DNA from: Fimbriimonadaceae bacterium
GTDB taxonomy: Bacteria; Armatimonadota; Fimbriimonadia; Fimbriimonadales; Fimbriimonadaceae
Direction: 5' to 3'
Assembly (NCBI GenBank): GCA_019638775.1
Contig: JAHBTD010000001.1
Coordinates: 434,001 to 498,000 of the forward strand
Length of the DNA: 64,000 bases
This document shows, piece by piece, positions 16,723 through 18,090 of this stretch (position 1 is the stretch's first letter; each line of letters starts with the position of its first letter). The position numbers and the translations under genes are program-made. Below the pieces are notes generated by a model that saw only the letters and a list, made by a program, of their open reading frames with translations, did no database searches and had not been told where the DNA came from.

Positions 16723-16798
16723 TCCTACGGACGAATGTTTCGTTTTGGAGTGCCTAGTGGCTTAAACAGTTGAACCTGTTAAGCCGTATTCTAACTCT

Positions 16799-16972
16799 AT
16801 GACTCGCAAGCTTCTCCTCGCGTGCACAATTGGTGCTGCTCTTGGTGGCGGCTATTCGCTGTTGATGCGCTCGTGCGGGTCGGGATGAATCAACGCCAAA
16901 AATCCGGCGGTGCCGGTGATTGTTGGGGTACTGATAGGGGCGTTCGCCGTGCTGATGGAGCGCCGAGACTAA
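16799..16972 (+). CDS. DUF6132-like two-helix membrane protein with in-frame TGA (selenoprotein candidate)
   Basis: From ATG 16799 the frame encodes 29 residues (MTRKLLLACTIGAALGGGY... ending SCGSG), meets TGA at 16886-16888, and continues for 27 codons (INAKNPAVPVIVGVLIGAF...MERRD) to TAA at 16970-16972. Both halves are hydrophobic helices, and together they give the two-helix layout I recall for DUF6132, where a C-x-S-G-x-C motif lies between the helices. The TGA falls where the second Cys would be, allowing one gap. Twenty bases after the TGA begins the GGT loop of a hairpin (16901-16921), within the spacing known for bacterial SECIS elements. hemW starts five bases later. The alternatives are a pseudogene from a small deletion, or two separate peptides. 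Confidence 0.55.
16901..16921 (+). promoter_or_regulatory. Candidate bacterial SECIS-like hairpin
   Basis: AATC-CGGC pairs with GCCG-GATT around a GGT loop, with a two-base GT bulge in the 3' arm. Exactly 20 bases separate the in-frame TGA from the loop, and the loop starts with G, as bacterial SECIS rules require. The stem is only eight pairs and GC-rich sequence forms such hairpins by chance, so this is suggestive only. Confidence 0.4.
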
Positions 16973-16977
16973 CTCAA

Positions 16978-18090
16978 ATGAATCCGATCGCCGTTTATGT
17001 CCACACACCCTTTTGCCCATCGAAGTGTGGCTATTGCGACTTCAACAGTTATGCGATGCAAGGGGATATTGTCGAGAGGACGACCGAGGCAATGATCCGT
17101 GAGCTAAAGACGAGCCGATGGCGCGGACAGCCTGCCAAAACCATCTTTATCGGCGGGGGAACCCCTACATTCCTGTCTGAAGCCCTAATCGTGAAACTGA
17201 TCCACGCGATCTTGGACGCTCACCCGCCTGTTGAGGGCTGTGAGATCACCAGTGAAGCGAATCCGGGGACTGTAGACATCCCTAAGTTTGAGGCGATGCG
17301 TAAAGCAGGGGTCAACCGCATCAGCCTTGGTGCACAGAGCTTCCTCGACCGCGATCTCAAGCAGCTTGAACGGGTTCACCAGGCGAACGACATCGGGCGA
17401 GCAGTGGGGTCAGCAAGAGAGGCAGGGTTTGAGAATCTGAATCTGGATTTGATGTTCGCACTGCCTGGGCAAAAGAGTGAGGGGTGGCAGCGAAATCTTG
17501 AGACAGCGATTGGGCTTGGGCCGGACCATTTGAGTCTGTACTGCCTCACTATCGAGCCGAACACGCGCTTCTACAAGCTCTATCACAAGGGTCTGCTGAA
17601 GTTGCCGAGCGACGAGGATCAAGTTTCCATGTACGATTACACGCTGGACTTCATGGCTTCGGCTGGGTACTTCCAGTATGAGATCAGCAACTTCGCAAAG
17701 CCTGGGCGTCAGTGCCAACACAACCTGTGTTATTGGCATGGAGAGGACTACTTGGGCTACGGGCCAGGGGCTGTAGGCTGCGTGAGTGTAGACGAGAGCA
17801 GGGTGAGATATACGAACCTGAAACACCCGAAGGGGTATTCCGAAGCGGTGGAGCAAGGCGCACCGCTGTGGTGCGAGCAGGAATCTCTCACACCGGATGC
17901 AGAACGATTGGAGAAGATTATGCTGGGATTGCGACTGGACGAAGGACTGATCTCCGATGGACTCGAATTAGATAGCGCTCAGTTGTCCGCGCTTGAAGAA
18001 AGGGGTTGGATTGAGAAGGCTGGAGATCGAGTCAAACTCACTCGAACAGGCAAGCACTTCTGTTCCGAAGCTGTGCTATCGCTTGCATAG
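16978..18090 (+). CDS. hemW: Radical SAM heme chaperone HemW
   Basis: This 370-residue member of the HemN/HemW radical SAM family starts at MNPIAVYVHTPFC. The iron-sulfur motif CPSKCGYC gives Cys13, Cys17 and Cys20, followed by DFNSY. That is the HemW form, which lacks the fourth Cys of true coproporphyrinogen dehydrogenase HemN. Further family motifs are FIGGGTPTFL, NRISLGAQSF and NLDLMFALPGQ, and the C-terminal HemN domain includes FQYEISNFAKPG and YLGYGPGAVG. Longer in-frame starts at 16822 or 16885 would read through the neighbouring membrane-peptide gene out of frame, so I use ATG 16978. It is predicted to bind heme and deliver it to apoproteins in the cytoplasm, and is coupled to the small gene upstream. 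Confidence 0.93.
   Translation: MNPIAVYVHTPFCPSKCGYCDFNSYAMQGDIVERTTEAMIRELKTSRWRGQPAKTIFIGGGTPTFLSEALIVKLIHAILDAHPPVEGCEITSEANPGTVDIPKFEAMRKAGVNRISLGAQSFLDRDLKQLERVHQANDIGRAVGSAREAGFENLNLDLMFALPGQKSEGWQRNLETAIGLGPDHLSLYCLTIEPNTRFYKLYHKGLLKLPSDEDQVSMYDYTLDFMASAGYFQYEISNFAKPGRQCQHNLCYWHGEDYLGYGPGAVGCVSVDESRVRYTNLKHPKGYSEAVEQGAPLWCEQESLTPDAERLEKIMLGLRLDEGLISDGLELDSAQLSALEERGWIEKAGDRVKLTRTGKHFCSEAVLSLA

Follow-up and report, generated by a model that had tools for sequence, protein, structure and literature searches.

Does the in-frame TGA of a small gene directly upstream of hemW encode selenocysteine (Sec), or does it mark a recently damaged reading frame? The gene occupies positions 16799–16972 (+) of the window, i.e., the whole 64,000-nucleotide stretch of Fimbriimonadaceae DNA analyzed here. 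It begins with ATG at 16799, crosses TGA at 16886–16888, and continues for 27 codons to a TAA at 16970–16972, five bases before the ATG (16978) of a hemW-like radical SAM gene (16978–18090, +) that has Radical_SAM and HemN_C matches. Translation confirms this layout, which an earlier note had described. The 57-residue product is MTRKLLLACTIGAALGGGYSLLMRSCGSG-U-INAKNPAVPVIVGVLIGAFAVLMERRD, where U is TGA-encoded residue 30. An inverted repeat, GGCTTAAaCAG...CTGTTAAGCC, lies between the upstream gene and the start codon (16759–16785) and is perhaps a terminator or regulatory site. An antisense ORF of 88 codons (16754–17020, −) faces the gene, probably by chance.

The genome containing the window (4.3 Mb, 99.9% complete) carries all four genes expected for bacterial Sec insertion, selA, selB, selC, and selD, for which the earlier note had proposed a search. 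SelA is encoded by an ORF of 444 aa (E 2.7e-126), and selB is present. The tRNA-Sec scores 70.8 bits and is identified by ARAGORN as tRNA-SeC with anticodon tca. SelD is itself a Sec protein, with one in-frame TGA at the site NCAGUASK (L018:1417–2409, −). Elsewhere in this genome, TGA is an ordinary stop; it terminates 11 of the 41 window ORFs of at least 250 codons. It also ends the selenoprotein-family gene itself in many relatives.

Within the window’s own bacterial family, 51 of 85 genomes carry a homologue, 37 with TGA and 14 with Cys at the codon. A phylum-wide search with the family profile matched 74 of 291 Armatimonadota genomes. One match (G059, E 1e-4) lacks Cys or Sec and was dropped as false, leaving 73 usable homologues with TGA (53) or Cys (20), and no other residue, at the Sec codon, a regularity that is not due to chance. 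Thus, the in-frame UGA aligns with Cys of homologues, a hallmark of selenoproteins, and the comparison of orthologues proposed earlier reveals Sec/Cys alternation. Nearly all named records with the gene are Fimbriimonadaceae, Fimbriimonadales, or Armatimonadota entries. One record titled “Methanoregulaceae archaeon” (L104, JADZEW010000008.1) carries this Fimbriimonadaceae gene; the title looks wrong, because the record matches a genome placed in the window’s family. A protein-pattern scan of genome contigs with the window protein yielded no confirmed relative. The corresponding DNA pattern of TGA plus hairpin gave 50 matches, 17 of them from the selenoprotein family; the bare pattern is unspecific, because the rest lie in unrelated frames.

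The residue at this codon follows the Sec machinery. Within the family set, selA is present in 36 of 37 TGA genomes versus 0 of 14 Cys genomes (Fisher p 1.2e-11), and phylum-wide in 51 of 53 versus 1 of 20; selB shows nearly the same pattern. The two TGA genomes with no selA match are 74% and 85% complete, and the 74% one has selB. One Cys-form genome retains selA (G051; in the comparison within genera, the exception is the Cys form of g18). Four genera (g6, g12, g14, and g16) each contain a TGA genome with selA as well as Cys genomes without it; such contrasts are not explained by shared ancestry alone.

A candidate bacterial SECIS (bSECIS) core hairpin, CCGGC-GGT-GCCGG, follows the TGA at 16904–16916 (+), with arms at 16904–16908 and 16912–16916 and a GGT loop at 16909–16911. 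The earlier note had placed the hairpin 20 bases after TGA; this holds for the start of the loop, but the stem already begins at 15 nt (16904). Published bSECIS constraints are a loop of 3–9 nt with G in one of the first two positions, a stem of 4–16 bp, a distance from UGA of 16–37 nt, and an MFE of at most −7.5 (PMC13188914). With a 3-nt loop starting with G, 5 bp, 20 nt, and −7.7 kcal/mol, the hairpin fits all four, which answers the earlier suggestion to check this segment for a bSECIS.

The folding energy of nucleotides +10 to +36 after TGA was also compared with that of 1000 synonymous recodings encoding the same peptide. The window hairpin reaches −7.7 against −2.5 ± 2.0 for the recodings (p 0.031). 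Codon usage for the recodings came from three window genes, a reservation where other genomes are concerned. At p<0.05, the hairpin surpasses its recodings in strength in 35 of 36 Fimbriimonadaceae Sec genes tested versus 2 of 20 Cys genes, and in 8 of 16 Sec genes of other Armatimonadota. Hairpin strength differs between Sec and Cys genes within the family set (Mann–Whitney p 1e-7). Alignment of 37 sequences in register shows four invariant stem pairs and three that change on both sides. In divergent members, the stem consists of different bases (CCAGTG-GGTC-CACTGG in G043 and GGGCAC-GGTC-GTGCCC in G152). In distant Armatimonadota lineages (f9, f12, f34, f35, f41, and part of f32), the test in the same 27-nt zone mostly failed. 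Most of the distant Sec forms L154 and L156–L165 show no clear hairpin at +10 to +36; they may use a SECIS of a different type or one located outside this zone. The case for a SECIS is comparative, because the z-score of the 65-nt window stretch folded alone is unremarkable. Rfam gave no match in the window at the gathering threshold.

Codons downstream of the TGA are under purifying selection in close pairs: dN/dS is 0–0.12 for all but one of the six closest pairs and 0.27 for that one, similar to the values before TGA. Synonymous divergence summed over pairs is 0.34 after TGA versus 0.50 before, as would be expected under an RNA constraint.

The small protein is best described as DUF6132-like. 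DUF6132 (PF19628) is filed as a family of unknown function, for which no mention of Sec was found, and its members share with the window protein a length of ~50–65 aa, two glycine-rich hydrophobic helices, and a central-loop Cys/Sec followed by a conserved Pro. The window family is linked by profile homology to accepted DUF6132 members: hhalign gives 97% and E 4e-11 against G253, and 94% and E 1.5e-7 against a Desulfobacterota member. The family profile A1 recovers G253 and G254, two Armatimonadota Sec forms that score above the Pfam cut-off. The window protein itself differs in having PAVPV after the loop, falls below the DUF6132 gathering score, and has no Pfam match at E<=10; among its 37 close relatives, only four match at E<=1. 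The family assignment of the earlier note therefore stands as homology but not as formal membership. The motif at the TGA is C-G-S-G-U, one residue short of the C-x-S-G-x-C given in that note.

Weaker resemblance is seen to XapX (TIGR03510; 8 of 37 relatives, best E 1e-4) and DUF1427 (PF07235; 3 of 37 relatives), all below cut-off (the NCBIfam cut-off for XapX), and the window protein itself has no XapX match. These matches suggest a shared small, glycine-rich, two-helix build.

Sec in DUF6132 proteins probably extends beyond Armatimonadota. PF19628 was found in 11 of 395 sampled genomes of Desulfobacterota, the phylum of the Desulfobacteraceae genome behind L114, with 13 matches. All 13 have exactly one in-frame TGA, mostly in KCxGSTU-type loops that are followed by CCCTGGTCAGGG-like hairpins with a GGTC loop. 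The Pfam cut-off was passed in 10 of the 11 matching genomes, and all eight of the proteins scanned lie above it. No PF19628 match was found in the genomes behind L114, L072, and L113. Most likely, Sec-containing DUF6132 proteins exist in two phyla, as judged from these sequences, so that the Sec member postulated in the earlier note would be joined by others elsewhere.

The possibility that an indel or substitution produced the TGA, making the gene a recent pseudogene or the codon a sequencing error, was the alternative raised in the earlier note as a 3-base deletion. The C-to-Sec spacing, one residue short of the motif in that note, speaks for it. However, TGA occupies the same codon in the 53 Armatimonadota genomes, spread over many genera, and recurs at the 13 Desulfobacterota places, and purifying selection past the TGA and the constraint on the hairpin also speak against it. 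The deletion is accordingly rejected, and this explanation retains a negligible share of the probability. Equally far-fetched is a reassigned code that gives TGA an ordinary amino acid, or leaky readthrough of the codon. The open frame is compatible with either, but nothing more; the use of TGA as a stop in long window ORFs and in relatives’ genes argues against both, as do Cys as the sole replacement and the tracking of selA/selB by TGA.

An improbable third idea is that the UGA acts as a selenium-dependent switch: when selenium is lacking, ribosomes would stop at UGA, translation of a coupled hemW would fall, and heme insertion would be tuned. The hemW gene lies downstream in 34 of 74 loci, with Sec as with Cys forms, and the stop adjoins or overlaps its start (ATGA) in many relatives, suggesting translational coupling. 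However, the tight spacing occurs in Cys forms as well as Sec forms, and at many Sec-form loci hemW is not the next gene; coupling is therefore not the reason for the UGA.

Decoding of the UGA as Sec is strongly supported by comparative evidence: the sel genes, Sec/Cys alternation, bSECIS fit, and Sec-containing DUF6132 proteins elsewhere all agree, and codon 16886–16888 almost certainly encodes Sec. SelA would make Sec-tRNA-Sec using the selenophosphate supplied by SelD, and the hairpin behind the UGA would let SelB deliver it for insertion at residue 30.

The protein is predicted to be a membrane helical hairpin with Sec in the loop connecting two hydrophobic helices. A low-confidence AlphaFold2 model (17 sequences; mean pLDDT 68, pTM 0.33) places helices at residues 2–26 and 37–56, with Sec30 between them. 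Charges point to no single membrane topology, and a PDB profile search gave no match.

In 69 of 73 proteins, the Sec/Cys position has a single other Cys nearby, at −3 to −6 or at +3/+4; the Fisher value for this pattern overstates the evidence because the sequences are related. The partner is downstream in 48, upstream in 21, and on both sides in none; in G152, a Cys is found at −7. The window protein has Cys26 (codon 16874–16876, +) at −4, as the putative partner of Sec30, and Ala at +3. Each arrangement occurs with Sec, with Cys, and in several families. The pattern agrees with a two-residue site, for redox or for metal, whose partner may sit on either side.

We infer that Sec and the single nearby Cys (Cys26 here; +3/+4 in most relatives) form a selenenylsulfide/thiol redox pair. 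On a weaker footing, thiol partners at the membrane surface, OsmC-type peroxidases or thioredoxin for example, probably exchange electrons with the protein in one direction or the other. An OsmC gene lies downstream in seven genomes of three families including the sister family (G150, G152, G155, G156, G228, G223, and G224), and the six of these neighbors that were scanned are all PF02566. In G191, the gene behind the Cys form encodes a thioredoxin. These neighbors lend weak support to thiol redox, while hemW provides no redox hint. At L155, L157, L159, and L164, the gene just upstream encodes a CPxC tail that resembles an FmdB-type zinc ribbon by eye.

A selenoprotein whose Sec and Cys hold a soft metal or metalloid (Hg, Cu, or As), or a selenium or sulfur species that is to be transported or trafficked, instead of carrying out dithiol redox chemistry, is a less likely competitor. 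A hairpin of two predicted membrane helices with Sec and Cys in its loop would suit such a role, the published selenoproteins include transport proteins, one of MerT type and one for Cu/Zn efflux (PMC13188914), and the relative in G226 sits directly behind an RND efflux-like gene, judged by eye. However, the neighbors with a recognized domain are OsmC, thioredoxin, and hemW rather than metal-resistance genes, and the loci share no conserved metal operon. The best overall explanation is a DUF6132-like membrane selenoprotein with Sec inserted at residue 30 and a reasoned, sequence-based redox role for the Sec/Cys pair (probability of roughly 0.9). A more tentative proposal, at somewhat less than even odds, is a membrane redox module that depends on selenium, is made up of DUF6132-like proteins, and spans phyla. 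In it, a minimal protein of two helices would bear the Sec/Cys pair, the resolving Cys would have switched sides of Sec in evolution, and electrons might pass between the membrane and OsmC- or thioredoxin-type enzymes.

The family shares UGA and bSECIS decoding with the 119 prokaryotic selenoprotein families in Table 1 of a 2026 review, and UxxC with many of them; neither DUF6132, XapX, nor a similar two-helix membrane protein is in that table (PMC13188914). Passages from the deep-Sep paper (PMC12013277) and from a 2022 review (PMC9312934) do not mention a DUF6132-like selenoprotein, and NCBIfam selenoprotein models give no match. A literature search for Armatimonadota or Fimbriimonas selenoproteins, DUF6132, and XapX returned nothing relevant, although other papers, preprints, or unpublished annotation may describe the family. 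These results agree with the earlier claim that a Sec-containing member was undescribed, and the widely conserved family, absent from the lists of selenoproteins consulted, would be an addition to them.

Standard annotation probably misses such tiny genes or truncates them at the UGA. With a Sec/Cys site, DUF6132 gains a testable active site. Because Sec and Cys are swapped within genera, mostly tracking loss of the Sec machinery, and because the partner Cys changes sides, the benefit of Sec over Cys becomes testable, and the window family offers a minimal membrane protein for testing Sec versus Cys.
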